Below, piece by piece: positions 2,008 to 49,924 of a DNA stretch of 64,000 nt. This DNA comes from Leisingera sp. SS27 (GTDB lineage: Bacteria; Pseudomonadota; Alphaproteobacteria; Rhodobacterales; Rhodobacteraceae). The stretch lies in the NCBI RefSeq assembly GCF_028368855.1, contig NZ_JAQNCY010000001.1, forward strand, positions 124,001 to 188,000, given 5' to 3'. A program made the translations under genes and the position numbers. The notes under the pieces are model-generated. The model had not been told where the DNA came from. It did no database searches and saw nothing but the letters and a program-made list of their open reading frames with translations. The stretch's first letter is position 1, and each line of letters begins with the position of its first letter.

Positions 2008-2021
2008 TGTTCGACAACAGA

Positions 2022-2113
2022 GGGCAGCGTCCGGCCCGTCCGGGGTGGAAGCGAAGCGCCCGCCCCGGTGGGGGGCGGGACGGGCGCTGCCCGGGGCCTT
2101 CGGCCCAGGCGGG
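2022..2113 (+). repeat. GC-rich nested hairpins between g8 and g9
   Basis: An outer stem pairs 2022-2029 (GGGCAGCG) with 2085-2092 and continues with GCCCGTC against GACGGGC after a small bulge. Inside it is a CCCGCCCC/GGGGCGGG hairpin, and immediately 3' is a short GGGCC-TTC-GGCCC hairpin. The layout (outer GGGCNGCG...CGCNGCCC stem, inner hairpin, then a second GC hairpin) is the same as that of the element inside g14 at 5624-5699. It lies just upstream of the abundantly needed tail tube gene. Role unknown. Confidence 0.65.
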
Positions 2114-4412: not shown

Positions 4413-5296
4413 CCAGCCTTTCCAGTGGCTTGCGCGACCACCTTCAATCCGGAATCACCACGGTGTGCCGTGCCTGGGCGCTGGAGCGGCGCGACGGAAC
4501 GGTGCTGGGATTTACCGACCATGACTGCGTGCTGTCCTTTGACGGCATCACCTTCCAGCCCGGCAGCGGGCTGACCGCGCGGGCGGTGCAGCAGGCCACC
4601 GGCCTGTCGGTCGACAACACCGAGGCCTTGGGGGTGCTGAGCGACGCCGCGGTGCGAGAGGAGGACATCGAGGCAGGCCGGTTTGACGGCGCGGAGGTGC
4701 GCTGCTGGCTGGTCAATTGGCAAGACGTCAGCATGCGGTGGCTGCAGTTCCGAGGCTCCATCGGCGAGATCCGCCGGGCAGGCGGTGCCTTTGAGGCTGA
4801 ACTGCGCGGGCTGACCGAAGCGCTGAACCAGCCGCTGGGGCGGATTTACCAGAAGCCCTGCACGGCTGTGCTGGGCAGCCGCACCTGCGGTTTCGATCTG
4901 GAAACGCCCGGATATGCCACTGACGTTGCGGTGGCGGAGACAAACCGCAGCGAGGCGTTCCGCTGGGACGCCTTGCCGGGGTTTGAGCCCGGCTGGTTTG
5001 CCGATGGCCGGCTGACGGTCCTCAGCGGTGCGGCAGAGGGGCTGTGGGCTGCCATCAAGGCGGACCGCAGCGATGCTGAGGGCCGCAGGATCACCCTGTG
5101 GGAGCCGGTGCGCGCCGCGGTGCAGCCGGGTGACATGGTCCGGCTGCAGGCTGGCTGCGACAAACGCATGGAGACCTGCCGCCTGAAGTTCAACAACCTT
5201 CTGAACTTTCAGGGGTTTCCCGATATTCCGGGCGAAGACTGGGTGATGGCGGTGCCGCGCCAGTCCGGCACCAACACCGGGGGCAGCCGCAGATGA
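4409..5296 (+). CDS. GTA tail hub protein (g13, DUF2163)
   Basis: 295 residues, DUF2163 N-terminal part followed by a phage BR0599-type C-terminal domain (TIGR02218). It forms the hub between the distal tail ring and the megatron. Four cysteines are visible in two pairs, C151/C160 and C250/C257, the second in the conserved FNNLLNFQGFPDIPG context. Hub proteins of the lambda gpL kind bind an iron-sulfur cluster through such cysteines, so this one probably does too. It overlaps both neighbouring genes by 4 bases. Confidence 0.92.
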   Translation: MTSLSSGLRDHLQSGITTVCRAWALERRDGTVLGFTDHDCVLSFDGITFQPGSGLTARAVQQATGLSVDNTEALGVLSDAAVREEDIEAGRFDGAEVRCWLVNWQDVSMRWLQFRGSIGEIRRAGGAFEAELRGLTEALNQPLGRIYQKPCTAVLGSRTCGFDLETPGYATDVAVAETNRSEAFRWDALPGFEPGWFADGRLTVLSGAAEGLWAAIKADRSDAEGRRITLWEPVRAAVQPGDMVRLQAGCDKRMETCRLKFNNLLNFQGFPDIPGEDWVMAVPRQSGTNTGGSRR

Positions 5297-5826
5297 GCCG
5301 GGTGGTGGAGGCCGCGCGCGGCTGGATCGGCACGCCCTATGTGCATCAGGCGTCCTGCAAGGGGGCGGGCTGCGATTGCCTGGGGCTGATCCTGGGGCTG
5401 TGGCGCGAACTGCTGGGCGCTGAGCCGGAGCTGCCGCCCGCCTACACGATGGACTGGTCCGAACCTCAGGGCGCCGAGGCGCTGTGGCAGGCCGCAACGC
5501 GGCATCTGGCAGCGAAGCCGCTGGATGCGGCGGCCCCCGGCGATGTGATCCTGTTCCGGATGCGCGAGGGATCGGTGGCCAAGCATCTGGGGGTGCAGGC
5601 TGTCGTTAGTACCAAAGAAATGAGGGCTGCGTCTGCCTGGGCGGGCGCGAATGCGCCTGCTGGGGGGCAGGCAGGCGCAGCCCGGCGGTGCCGCCGGGCG
5701 AAACAGGTATGCAGTGTCCCCTCCTTCATCCACGCCTATGCCGGCCACGGGGTTGTGGAAAGCCCGCTGAGCCCGCCCTGGCAGCGCCGCATCGTGGCGC
5801 GGTTTCACTTCCCTGGCACGTCCTGA
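5293..5826 (+). CDS. GTA tail NlpC/P60 peptidase (g14) with in-frame insertion
   Basis: 177 residues, TIGR02219 family, a cell-wall peptidase carried in the GTA tail tip that should cut peptidoglycan during DNA delivery. The catalytic cysteine is expected at C29 (in CDCLGL) and the histidine at H98 (in VAKHLG). The family normally runs almost directly from the histidine strand to the SFIHAYAGHGVVESPL block. Here about 30-40 extra residues rich in Ala, Gly, Arg and Cys (about residues 104-142) separate them, which makes the protein longer than usual. The extra DNA is a nested palindrome (5624-5699). Ends are intact, so the reading frame survived the insertion. Whether the enzyme still works is unknown. 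Confidence 0.9.
   Translation: MSRVVEAARGWIGTPYVHQASCKGAGCDCLGLILGLWRELLGAEPELPPAYTMDWSEPQGAEALWQAATRHLAAKPLDAAAPGDVILFRMREGSVAKHLGVQAVVSTKEMRAASAWAGANAPAGGQAGAARRCRRAKQVCSVPSFIHAYAGHGVVESPLSPPWQRRIVARFHFPGTS
5624..5699 (+). repeat. Nested palindrome inserted within GTA g14
   Basis: A 16-bp stem with one T-G wobble pairs 5624-5639 with 5668-5683. Its loop holds a second hairpin (GCGGGCGC-GAAT-GCGCCTGC), and directly downstream 5681-5699 contains CCCGGCGG-TG-CCGCCGGG. The element is translated as low-complexity Ala/Gly/Arg sequence in the middle of a conserved enzyme. Same architecture as 2022-2113. It looks like a small mobile palindromic element; that is inference. Confidence 0.75.
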
Positions 5827-5842: not shown

Positions 5843-8800
5843 ATGGCAACCATTCTACTCTCTGCTGCCGGCGCGGCGATTGGCGGCGCAATTGGCGGCT
5901 CGGTCGCGGGGCTGTCCTCAGCCGTCATCGGCAGGGCGGTCGGCGCCACCCTGGGGCGGCTGATTGACCAGCGCCTGATGGGTTCAGGCGCGGAGCCGGT
6001 GGAGACAGGCAAAGTGGACCGTTTCCGCCTGACCCAGGCCAGCGAGGGCGCGCCGGTGGCGCAGGTTTATGGCCGGATGCGGCTGGGCGGGCAGGTAATC
6101 TGGTCCTCCCGCTTTCTGGAGACAGTCACCGTCACTCCCGGCAGCAGCGGCGGCGGCAAGGGAAGCCCCCGGCCGCCGCAGCCGCAGGTGACCAGCTACA
6201 GTTATTCGGTGTCGCTGGCGGTTGCGCTCTGCGAGGGTGAGGTCGCCAGCATCTCCCGTGTTTGGGCCGATGGCGAGGAAGTGGCACCGAAGGATCTGAA
6301 CATGACCGTCTACCGCGGCACTGCGGACCAGCTGCCGGACCCGGTGATGGAGGCGGTCGAGGGCGCAGGCCAGGTGCCCGCCTACCGCGGTACGGCTTAT
6401 GTGGTGATGGAGAATGTGCAGCTGGCGCGGTTTGGCAACCGGGTGCCGCAGTTCTCATTCGATGTGCTGCGTCCTGAGCAGCCTGCCAGCAGCACCTATG
6501 AGCAGGATCTGGGGCAGCTGGTGCAGGGGGTGGCGCTGATGTCGGGCACGGGCGAGTATGCGCTGGCGCCTGGCACGGTGATGTATTCCGGCGGGCCGGG
6601 GGATATGAAACCCGCCAATCAGCACACGCCCTCGGGGATGAGCGACCTCAAGACCTCGCTGACCGCCTTGAACGCGGAACTGCCCGCCTGCGGTGCGGCG
6701 TCCCTGATCGTATCCTGGTTCGGCAATGATCTGCGCTGCGGGGCCTGTTCAATTAGGCCGAAGGTGGAGCATAAGGATGCCGAGGGCAGCATTCCCTGGA
6801 CGGCGGGCGGGCTGAACCGGGCGTCTGCCGAACAGGTGCTGCGGGAAAACGGAACGCCGCTTTATGGCGGCACGCCGGCCGATGCCTCGGTGGTGCAATC
6901 GATATGGGAAATGCGGGCGCGGGGCCTGCGGGTGATGTTCTATCCCTTCATCCTGATGGATCAGGCGGCGGGCAACACGCTGCCCGATCCCTGGACCGGC
7001 GAGGACGGCCAGCCGCATCTGCCGTGGCGCGGGCGGATCACCTTGTCGGTGGCACCGGGCCAGGCCGGGTCTCCTGATGGCACCGCGGCAGCGGATGCCG
7101 AAGTGGCGGCGTTCTTCGGCACGGCCACGGCGGCGCATTTCACCGTCGGCAGCGGCACCGTGACATATAGCGGCCCGGATGAATGGAGCCTCAGCCGCTT
7201 CATCCTGCACAATGCCGCCCTGTGTGCGGCGGCGGGCGGGGTTGAGGCGTTCTGCATCAGCTCTGAAATGCGCAGCCTGACCCAGATCCGCGGTGCCAAT
7301 GGCTTCCCGGCGGTGCAGCGGCTGAAGGCGCTGGCGGCAGAAGTGCGCAGCCTGCTGGGGCCGGGCACCAAAATCGGCTATGCCGCCGACTGGTCGGAAT
7401 ACTGGGGCTATCAATCGCCGGAGGGCGACCGCTACTTTCACCTCGACCCGCTGTGGGCGGATGCCAATATCGACTTTGTCGGCATCGATAATTACATGCC
7501 GCTGTCCGACTGGCGCGAGGGCAGCGGCCATCTGGACGCGCAGGCGGGCGTGCCGTCGGTCTACGACCTCGATTACCTGCGCAGCAACGTGGAGGGCGGC
7601 GAGGGGTTTGACTGGTATTACCACTCTCCCCAGGCGCGGGAGGCGCAGATCCGCACCCCGATCACCGATGGCGCCCATGATGAGCCCTGGATCTGGCGCT
7701 ACAAGGATATCCGCAGCTGGTGGACTGAGACGCATCACGAGCGCATCGGCGGGGTGCGGCAGGCTGCGCCCACGGACTGGGTGCCGCAATCAAAGCCCAT
7801 CTGGTTCACCGAACTGGGCTGCGCGGCGATCGACAAGGGCACCAATCAGCCCAACAAGTTCCTGGATCCGAAAAGCTCTGAATCGAAACTGCCGCAGTAT
7901 TCCAACGGGTTGCGGGACGATCTGATGCAGATCCAGTACCTGCGCGCCTTTCTGGGATATTGGGGCGAGGCCGCCAATAATCCCGTTTCCGAGGAATACG
8001 GCGGGCCAATGCTGGATATGTCCAACGCCTATGTCTGGGCCTGGGACGCGCGCCCGTTTCCGGCCTTCCCGAGCCGCATGGAGATCTGGAACGACGGCGA
8101 AAACTACCTGCGCGGCCATTGGCTGAACGGGCGTGCCGGACAGCGGACGCTGGCCTCTGTGGTGGAGGAGATCTGCCGCAGCGCGGGCCTTTATGACATT
8201 GATACAACGGGTCTTTACGGCGTGGTGCATGGGTTTGTGAACCCAGATGTGGCAGACGCCCGCGCGGTGCTGCAGCCGCTTATGCTGCGGCACGGGTTTG
8301 ACGCGGTGGAGCGCGACGGTGTGCTGCGGTTCCGGATGCGCAAGGGCAGCGTGACTGAGGCGCTGACGCTGGAGCAACTGGCTGACAGCGACGAGACGGA
8401 CGGCAGCCTGGAATTGGCCCGCGCCAGCGAAGCCGAACTGGCGGGCCGGGTGCGGCTGCGGTTCACCGAATGGGGCGGCGACCATGCCGCCGGCTCGGTC
8501 GAGGCGGTCCTGCCCGACGAGGAGACGCATAGTGTCAGCCAGAATGAGCTGCCCTTGTCGCTCACCCGGGCCGAGGCGCGCCAGACCGTCGCCCGCTGGC
8601 TGGCAGAGGCGCGGATATCCCGCGACACCGCCCGGTTCACGCTGCCGCCGTCGCTCTTGCATCTGGGAGCGGGCGATGTGGTGTCGCTGCCGGTTGAGGG
8701 CAAGGCGCAGCTCTACCGGATCGACCGGGTGGAGCAGGCGGAGGCGCAGGCGGTGGAGGCGGTTCGGATCGAGCCCGGCTCCTATGATCTGGACGCGGTG

Positions 8801-9772
8801 GCGGAGGAACTGCCGGGCGTCAATGCCTTTGCCGCTCCGGGCCCGGTGCTGCCGCTGTTCATGGACCTGCCGCTGATGCGCGGCGATGAGGTGCCGCACG
8901 CGCCGCATCTGGCGCTGACCGCTGCGGCCTGGCCCGGCAGCGTCGCGGTCTACGGCTCCGAAGCGGATGAAAATTACGCTCTGGAACAGGTGGTTGCGGC
9001 GCGGCAGGTGGTGGGCGTCACTGAGACGCCGCTCTATGCAGCAGGCCCGGGGCGCTGGGATCTGGGCGCGGACTTGCAGGTCAGGCTGATCTCCGGCGCG
9101 CTGGAGAGCCGCACCGCGGAAGCGGTGCTGAACGGCGCCAATGCGGCTGCCATCGGCGATGGCAGCCCTGGCAACTGGGAGCTGTTCCAGTTCTGCGAGG
9201 CGGAGCTGATTGCGCCGCAGACCTATCTTTTGCGCGGACGCTTGCGCGGACAGCTGGGCAGTGATGCGCTGATGCCGGAGGTCTGGGCCGCGGGGGTTTA
9301 CTTCGTGCTGCTGGATGGCAGTGCGGTCCAGATGAGCCTGTCGCCGGAGCAGCGCCGCCGCCTGCGCCACTACCGGATCGGCCCGGCTCGCCGCGGTCTG
9401 GAGGATCCGTCTTATCTGCATCTGCAGGAGAGTTTCGAGGGCGTAGGCCTGCGGCCCTATGCCCCGGTGCATCTGCGGCTGAGCGGCGCGCTCGGGCAGG
9501 ATGTTTCAGCGGACTGGATCCGCCGCACCCGGATCGAGGGCGACAGCTGGGAGCTGGACGAGGTGCCGCTGGGCGAGGAGATCGAGAGCTACCGCATCCG
9601 GGTGATGCGCGGGGCAACTGTGCTGCGGGAAGAAACCTCAGCCACGCCCGCCTGGGCCTATCCGGCAGGGGCGCAGGCGCTGGACGGGGTGCAGGCGGGA
9701 GACGTGCTGGAAGTGGCGCAGCGCTCGGCGCGGTTTGGTGCCGGGGCGGCGGCGGAGGTGGTGCTGGGATGA
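5843..9772 (+). CDS. GTA megatron / baseplate host-contact protein (g15)
   Basis: 1309 residues, the largest GTA gene, encoding the tail-tip megatron that contacts the recipient cell and gates the DNA channel. Parts in order: a small, glycine- and alanine-rich hydrophobic N-terminus (residues 1-45, with GAAIGGAIGGSVAG); a tail-tube-like beta region with VAQVYGRMRLGGQVIWSSRF; the GTA TIM-barrel-like domain, about residues 430-730, with IGYAADWSEYWGY, FVGIDNYMPLSDW and a WFTELG motif (E657); a phage-tail_3 type domain about 780-1000; and a beta-rich C-terminal domain from about 1050. The TIM barrel resembles glycosidases and E657 sits where a catalytic acid would be, so cell-surface glycan cleavage or binding is plausible. 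Full length, no break seen. The next gene overlaps its stop. Confidence 0.94.
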   Translation: MATILLSAAGAAIGGAIGGSVAGLSSAVIGRAVGATLGRLIDQRLMGSGAEPVETGKVDRFRLTQASEGAPVAQVYGRMRLGGQVIWSSRFLETVTVTPGSSGGGKGSPRPPQPQVTSYSYSVSLAVALCEGEVASISRVWADGEEVAPKDLNMTVYRGTADQLPDPVMEAVEGAGQVPAYRGTAYVVMENVQLARFGNRVPQFSFDVLRPEQPASSTYEQDLGQLVQGVALMSGTGEYALAPGTVMYSGGPGDMKPANQHTPSGMSDLKTSLTALNAELPACGAASLIVSWFGNDLRCGACSIRPKVEHKDAEGSIPWTAGGLNRASAEQVLRENGTPLYGGTPADASVVQSIWEMRARGLRVMFYPFILMDQAAGNTLPDPWTGEDGQPHLPWRGRITLSVAPGQAGSPDGTAAADAEVAAFFGTATAAHFTVGSGTVTYSGPDEWSLSRFILHNAALCAAAGGVEAFCISSEMRSLTQIRGANGFPAVQRLKALAAEVRSLLGPGTKIGYAADWSEYWGYQSPEGDRYFHLDPLWADANIDFVGIDNYMPLSDWREGSGHLDAQAGVPSVYDLDYLRSNVEGGEGFDWYYHSPQAREAQIRTPITDGAHDEPWIWRYKDIRSWWTETHHERIGGVRQAAPTDWVPQSKPIWFTELGCAAIDKGTNQPNKFLDPKSSESKLPQYSNGLRDDLMQIQYLRAFLGYWGEAANNPVSEEYGGPMLDMSNAYVWAWDARPFPAFPSRMEIWNDGENYLRGHWLNGRAGQRTLASVVEEICRSAGLYDIDTTGLYGVVHGFVNPDVADARAVLQPLMLRHGFDAVERDGVLRFRMRKGSVTEALTLEQLADSDETDGSLELARASEAELAGRVRLRFTEWGGDHAAGSVEAVLPDEETHSVSQNELPLSLTRAEARQTVARWLAEARISRDTARFTLPPSLLHLGAGDVVSLPVEGKAQLYRIDRVEQAEAQAVEAVRIEPGSYDLDAVAEELPGVNAFAAPGPVLPLFMDLPLMRGDEVPHAPHLALTAAAWPGSVAVYGSEADENYALEQVVAARQVVGVTETPLYAAGPGRWDLGADLQVRLISGALESRTAEAVLNGANAAAIGDGSPGNWELFQFCEAELIAPQTYLLRGRLRGQLGSDALMPEVWAAGVYFVLLDGSAVQMSLSPEQRRRLRHYRIGPARRGLEDPSYLHLQESFEGVGLRPYAPVHLRLSGALGQDVSADWIRRTRIEGDSWELDEVPLGEEIESYRIRVMRGATVLREETSATPAWAYPAGAQALDGVQAGDVLEVAQRSARFGAGAAAEVVLG

Positions 9773-49524: not shown

Positions 49525-49924
49525 TTACAGCTGGTCCTTTTTTCGCTGCCTTCGTCATAAAGGGCTGCGGGGCAAAGCCAAGGGAGCCGAAAAACGGCGG
49601 CGGCGCGCCGCCAGTTGCCGCTCGGGCGGCGGCAAGAACCCGCGCTTGCAGGTTCTGCGTTGTGCCGGCAGAAGCATTTCGGAACCGGCAGCCGGTTTTA
49701 GCTCAGTGCCGGGATAAAAGCCGCGGATTTTCGCCTGCGCGGCGTTGCGCTGCACGCAACCGATTCCGGTGCAGGACGTGCTGCTGCGGACGTGTTTGGC
49801 TGGCCGGGAAAACATCTTTGCAGGCCCGCGCGCGGTGTTCCGGATGCCAGAGGCCGGCCCTGTGCGGGGCCGGCCTGGCGCCAAGCCGGTTTGGGAGGAA
49901 ACCGCGTGGAGGCGGCCGGGCGTG
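49525..49924. other. 400-bp non-coding gap
   Basis: No gene with acceptable start and codon use is seen. It holds a T-run near 49540, a TTGCCGC/GCGGCAA hairpin (49615-49635) and a perfect 10-bp hairpin AGGCCGGCCC...GGGCCGGCCT (49851-49876) that may end the mmsB transcript although no T-run follows. Confidence 0.5.

Follow-up and report, generated by a model that had tools for sequence, protein, structure and literature searches.

The g14 gene of a GTA cluster in Leisingera sp. SS27 carries extra codons whose DNA folds into nested hairpins, which raises the question of how a palindromic DNA element came to lie in frame within a peptidase gene. We addressed this question in a stretch of 64,000 nucleotides (the window) and in related genomes. 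We conclude that the extra codons very probably derive from a nested palindromic repeat that belongs to the host bacterial family, that this copy is located in a tolerant turn of the protein, and that it would be translated and probably arrived before the sampled Leisingera species diverged.

The features of the locus are given below. R1 is a covariance model built from 13 aligned and folded copies of the repeat, namely 12 intergenic copies and the copy in pabB (L042); the g14 copy was excluded, and all E-values from R1 are rough.

2020..2112, + strand: intergenic family copy between g8 and g9; R1 64.2 bits (copy in the training set)
5293..5826, + strand: g14, GTA NlpC/P60 tail peptidase with insertion; TIGR02219 167 bits, cut-off 81.9
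5622..5701 (80 nt), + strand: nested palindromic repeat, in frame in g14; R1 1-88 of 88, 46.9 bits, E 6.9e-6
5624..5639, + strand: left outer arm; inverted repeat I1
5640..5661, + strand: inner hairpin, 9 bp with a 4-nt loop (5640-5648 / 5653-5661); minimum-energy structure
5668..5683, + strand: right outer arm; inverted repeat I1
5680..5699, + strand: second (3') hairpin (5680-5688 / 5691-5699), overlapping the end of the right arm; inverted repeat I5, 9 nt exact
5843..9772, + strand: g15, GTA megatron, directly downstream of g14; NF048004 1913.8 bits

The insertion in g14

Profile matches in the order g13 (TIGR02218), g14 (TIGR02219) and g15 megatron (NF048004) identify the gene as the g14 of a GTA, which encodes a phage-type NlpC/P60 peptidase and lies between the genes for the baseplate hub and the megatron. 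The product has 177 amino acids. Its score against the Pfam family NLPC_P60 is 20.4 bits, under the cut-off of 23, and a search of solved structures returned one weak match, to lipoprotein Spr (E 0.0048).

The distance from the AKHLG motif to the FIHAY block is 44 residues in this protein and about 10 in most loci of other genera. This corresponds to approximately 34 extra codons, in line with the original prediction of 30-40 between the histidine motif and FIHAY. The loop measures 17-54 residues across all 21 Leisingera loci (L010-L030), and the reading frame is open through it in every one, with TAA at the end of the match in two rows. Among 67 loci of other genera (L091-L157, drawn from the best 80 of 108 relatives), the loop is 6-12 residues long in 62 and 15-28 residues in L091, L093, L096 and L112; that of L107 was not located, and the lengths in L108, L117 and L142 were read by eye where the search pattern anchored badly or missed. 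Nine more loci (L031-L039) have loops of 10-11 residues.

The structure model of g14 is mostly confident (pTM 0.79), with pLDDT falling below 50 across residues 115-136 and lower confidence at about residues 51-60. The loop links strands 98-106 and 141-149 in this model, which bear the invariant residues H98 and H147; these and C29 are presumably catalytic, as in the NlpC/P60 family. The insert appears as a disordered extension of a beta-hairpin turn, and its effect on the peptidase is probably near neutral. Deletion of the same GTA gene in R. capsulatus (Rcc01697) leaves no native particles according to the accessible text of PMC7296036, so the open frame of g14 matters here if the GTA is active. 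The same text gives the R. capsulatus protein as 150 residues, as compared to 177 here with the repeat-derived loop, a comparison of unaligned lengths only.

The 16-bp stem with an inner and a second hairpin, predicted from the sequence, is real, and the inner stem is 9 bp long. The outer arms of 16 nt are 94% complementary, and none of 200 dinucleotide shuffles folded as stably as the element (z -4.1 as RNA and -4.0 as DNA). The likeness to the hairpin before g9 also held up, since R1 matches both copies, the g9-side copy being in the training set and the g14 copy not. The g8-g9 copy has the same layout, and its fold was reached by 1 of 200 shuffles as RNA. A search of the window against Rfam gave no match at the gathering score; six element loci from elsewhere gave one weak match (23.2 bits, cut-off 38).

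Copies elsewhere in the genome and in relatives

A check set beforehand was whether the genome holds other copies of the g14 element, and it does. BLAST with the g14 region found 8 other partial matches, and BLAST with the g8-g9 copy found 18 other matches, some of which are pieces of one copy. R1 matched at least 18 places besides g14 at E<=0.01, of which 13 had trained the model and 5 had not. These counts are lower bounds because 150 of 7706 first-look candidates were scored; the g14 copy itself is missing from the scan list, though it scores high enough. All 21 Leisingera genomes have R1 matches, 10-40 each at E<=0.001. With stricter filters and at most 25 (family) or 33 (class) candidates scored per genome, at least 60 of 149 genomes of the host bacterial family passed R1 at E<=1e-4, the own genome included, and in a class sample at least 2 of 115 genomes had R1 matches, both from the host bacterial family. 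The element is approximately 60-118 nt long across copies, with nested and tandem hairpins. A weak R1 match at 49849-49893 of the window (21.1 bits, E 0.14) is without the inner hairpin and was left out of the copy counts. Inner hairpin modules of two kinds nest at one and the same element position (L005, L006, L009, L048 and L058; L018 and L019 in g14; L194 and L197 in pabB).

Fifteen of the 18 copies in this genome are clear of genes, and one overlaps a gene end by 3 nt, as judged by a codon-score gene caller. The remaining two are found in pabB and PBP1C. The pabB gene encodes aminodeoxychorismate synthase I (NF005698, 546.6 bits, residues 2-393) and carries the element in frame at about residues 90-120. 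In 15 of the 21 Leisingera loci R1 matched it in this position, one being cut by the contig end; as with the g14 copy, it is trimmed or lost in the rest of the genus. Since L042 trained R1, the pabB row of this genome is not independent of the model, whereas the g14 rows are. The pabB linker is 45 amino acids long here, and it ranges from 21 to 52 across 20 Leisingera loci and from 19 to 33 across 11 from other genera, a comparison that left out 17 weaker rows of other genera (below 152 bits) as probable paralogues. For PBP1C (TIGR02073, 545.4 bits, starting at residue 68), the element directly precedes a hydrophobic stretch. The only ATG, GTG or TTG before this stretch lies upstream of the element, suggesting that the copy (L074, L183) probably forms an N-terminal tail of the protein. 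The PBP1C of G016 resembles it except for a further GTG within the element.

Across the genus we collected 126 copy loci, a biased sample that consists of the better-scoring among the matches listed. Coding sequence on both sides was found for four of them, namely g14 (L176) and pabB (L061, L180 and L274), using a filter that requires 20 codons on each side and misses the PBP1C cases. L287 was dropped as a coding copy since its frame is likely antisense, as judged by eye. A relaxed pass flagged four loci, pabB L180 again and L065, L251 and L284 of one site, where the start codon lies 20-24 codons past the element. Terminal coding copies are thus undercounted, because the relaxed pass also missed PBP1C. 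Among copy loci of other genera, no coding copy was seen in 18 of 19 tested with the stricter filter, and one locus was skipped. Of the 126 copies, 52 are free of stop codons in all six frames, as compared to 47 of 2000 random 89-mers of the window, an excess due to the high GC content.

Pairing, age and turnover

The original prediction called for an alignment of g14 from relatives, and this confirmed that most loci of other genera are without the loop. At E<=0.01, R1 finds the palindrome in 13 of the 21 Leisingera loci and in none of 9 from other genera, and the peptides are unconserved, with differing frames. In eight genomes the frame gives RA(A/M) for the left arm of the g14 element, and in five it gives G(S/R); for the right arm of the pabB element it gives either GRCPA or GRALPG. 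The peptides and frames of both inserts thus differ between species.

The pairing of the palindrome is kept between species while the peptide changes. In g14, 89.9% of the cells are paired, compared to 81.5% in shuffles and 35-48% with the partners slid, and 27 cells are changed on both sides versus 12.4 in shuffles. For pabB, 91.9% of the cells are paired and the changes on both sides number 19 versus 5.7. The alignments were fitted to R1, and few replacement events may underlie these counts. Counted as pairs changed on both sides, g14 is not clearly above the shuffles (7 versus 5.7, reached by 97 of 500), and its further pair types were reached by 236 of 500; the corresponding values for pabB, 49 and 41 of 500, are not strongly above either.

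The eight Leisingera g14 genes without an R1 match all have shorter loops. The ends of the element are recognizable by eye in L027 and L029 (GAGGGCAGCGCCCGG) and not in others of the eight, and L091, from a neighbouring clade in the flank tree, contains what by eye seems to be the right half of the element. Based on the R1 matches in 13 of 21 loci, the remnants in some others and the half element in L091, we infer that the insertion probably predates the sampled Leisingera species. The nearest neighbour by loop is also the nearest by flank in 9 of 21 g14 loci. L017 and the L010-L014 group share a common arm type, yet they are apart in the flank tree. Such disagreement between loop and flank can be explained by strain-to-strain exchange or by fast change, and the g14 element may also have spread within the genus by recombination.

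The 126 genus copy loci represent 55 sites: 26 of these recur and account for 97 loci, and the other 29 were each seen once in this capped sample. Movement is therefore not recent for most sampled copies, since 97 of 126 occupy sites that at least two genomes share, and the sharing of sites suggests that many copies are old or have travelled together with their flanks. The listed flank-identity bands include 215 of the 217 same-site pairs, and 68 of these 215 differ by at least 20 nt in length, often by an inner module, which at one site is in inverted form (L258 as compared to L231 and L288). Elements at the same site are closer to each other (likeness 0.811) than elements at different sites, for which the likeness is 0.742 within a genome and 0.749 between genomes; genome-wide homogenisation of the copies is thus not seen.

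We propose that non-autonomous transposition or palindrome-mediated copying brought the repeat into a turn of the GTA peptidase that tolerates it. Because the repeat is GC-rich and nearly stop-free, an insertion in frame would easily be open. Selection would hold the frame of the peptidase open, leaving the insert free to change, to shorten, to swap inner hairpins or to pass between strains. A bolder reading, tentative and on balance doubtful, is that g14 and pabB each offer a standing "slot" where the element is repeatedly replaced or rebuilt by other repeat variants, such that the arms would change together, the inner hairpins would be swapped and even the reading frame would be altered. If true, noncoding repeat DNA would keep feeding new peptide loops into working genes.

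Copies in the GTA cluster, rival readings and related systems

Three of the at least 19 copies in the genome lie within the GTA cluster of approximately 14 kb, at 1995-2054 of L360 (before the portal gene) and at 2020-2112 and 5622-5701 of the window. The portal-side copy, some 8 kb upstream of g14, follows a gene that has no NCBIfam match, according to the gene context in this genome. It is present in 14 of 20 Leisingera loci, one of the six others being cut short, and is oriented against the GTA direction in 10 and with it in 4, in different Leisingera species; the orientation of weak palindromic matches is uncertain, and strong ones occur both ways. In 17 of the 20 loci, among them that of the nearest relative G018, the g8-g9 spacer is empty (45-47 nt). 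Spacers with and without the copy diverge over most of their length, and no target-site duplication or exact empty site could be defined there; as the rest of the occupied spacer differs too, recombination of a longer tract is possible. All 29 R1 matches in the 20 Leisingera GTA loci are at the portal-side, pre-g9 or g14 places, and four other loci (L091, L093, L096 and Pseudooceanicola L140) have copies between g11 and g12. Copies in the GTA cluster are denser than expected, as was noticed after the fact. One public record, L089, is titled Nocardioides marinus and carries a Leisingera-type GTA locus, so the name is probably wrong.

Could the g14 palindrome be kept because it acts in the transcript or the DNA of the GTA, perhaps as a hairpin in mRNA processing or stability, with translation as a side effect? 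The pairing that persists while peptide and frame change, the three copies in this cluster, the restriction of all 29 matches to three places and the g11-g12 copies are consistent with such a role. However, eight of 21 Leisingera g14 genes are without a match, the pre-g9 copy is absent in most loci, the portal-side copy occurs in both orientations, the same element is found in pabB and in many unrelated spacers, and the enrichment in the GTA was spotted in retrospect, which makes this explanation unlikely. It is less probable still that selection on the Leisingera peptidase shaped the loop, for instance as a substrate or assembly contact, and that it is palindromic by coincidence: all 21 loci have the longer turn (17-54 residues) with an open frame, but the peptide is unconserved, read in two frames and modelled with low confidence, and the same DNA repeat is present in spacers genome-wide and in an unrelated enzyme (pabB). 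A chance palindrome unrelated to repeats elsewhere is rejected, for although GC-rich sequence folds readily (the shuffles average -46 kcal/mol), R1 built without the g14 copy matches it end to end (E 6.9e-6, rough), none of the 200 shuffles equals its fold and the class sample is without a match outside the host bacterial family.

The preferred reading, a family repeat inserted in frame into g14, has counterparts in known systems. Rickettsia palindromic elements (RPEs) are palindromic repeats of approximately 100-150 nt that are found between genes and in frame in genes for conserved proteins, where they are apparently tolerated, and palindromic repeats of a similar kind in Wolbachia are cited in the same source (PMC2229807, as far as its accessible text goes). 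As in those systems, the repeat described here is both intergenic and in frame within conserved genes (g14 and pabB), the insert is absent from most orthologues outside the genus, and the frame of the host gene is kept. RPEs differ in belonging to another host family, and the copies here lie mostly between genes, the exceptions being two coding sites and a probable third; the comparison with RPEs is one of description. The element is a new, separate-looking family among the in-frame palindromic repeats, a kind already known. Neither this family nor palindromes in GTA genes were described in the literature searched, with subscription papers mostly outside it. In-frame palindromic repeats are best known from the intracellular Rickettsia, and the present ones occur in a free-living marine genus, in a GTA gene and in folate synthesis. 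The 21 Leisingera genomes display full, trimmed and re-framed versions of the inserts, and the culturable host allows tests of whether the inserts are neutral and whether the palindrome is kept by processes at the DNA level rather than by selection on the protein.

MITEs such as ERIC, Correia/NEMIS and YPAL are likewise small, structured and non-autonomous, with some in-frame gene fusions, according to the portions available of PMC2229807. They are marked by a target-site duplication and a parent insertion sequence; for the present element no target-site duplication could be defined at the g8-g9 spacer, and the search for a parent insertion sequence covered PF01797. The original prediction of a REP/RPE-like repeat that had landed in g14 and kept the frame stands as regards the R1 repeat family and the open frame. 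The landing is not recent, since the insert is present at the same place across Leisingera, and a REP driven by a RAYT is not supported, as Y1_Tnp (PF01797) has 0 matches in this genome; it is present in 6 of 21 genomes of the genus.

REPs are mostly intergenic and in some cases intragenic, and their CGTC class is common in alphaproteobacteria and not associated with a transposase, as stated in the accessible part of PMC3733652. The element resembles the GTAG/CGTC-tagged REPs described there in being palindromic, mostly intergenic and sometimes located in genes. Those REPs are 20-40 nt long with a terminal tag, as compared to approximately 60-118 nt with nested and tandem hairpins for the element, and the g14 copy is without a module of that size with a tag and a stem of 8-9 bp. 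The nested inner modules found in some other copies have CGTC at their start when read on the opposite strand, as in alphaproteobacterial REPs, with stems that by eye are shorter, a matter of resemblance only.
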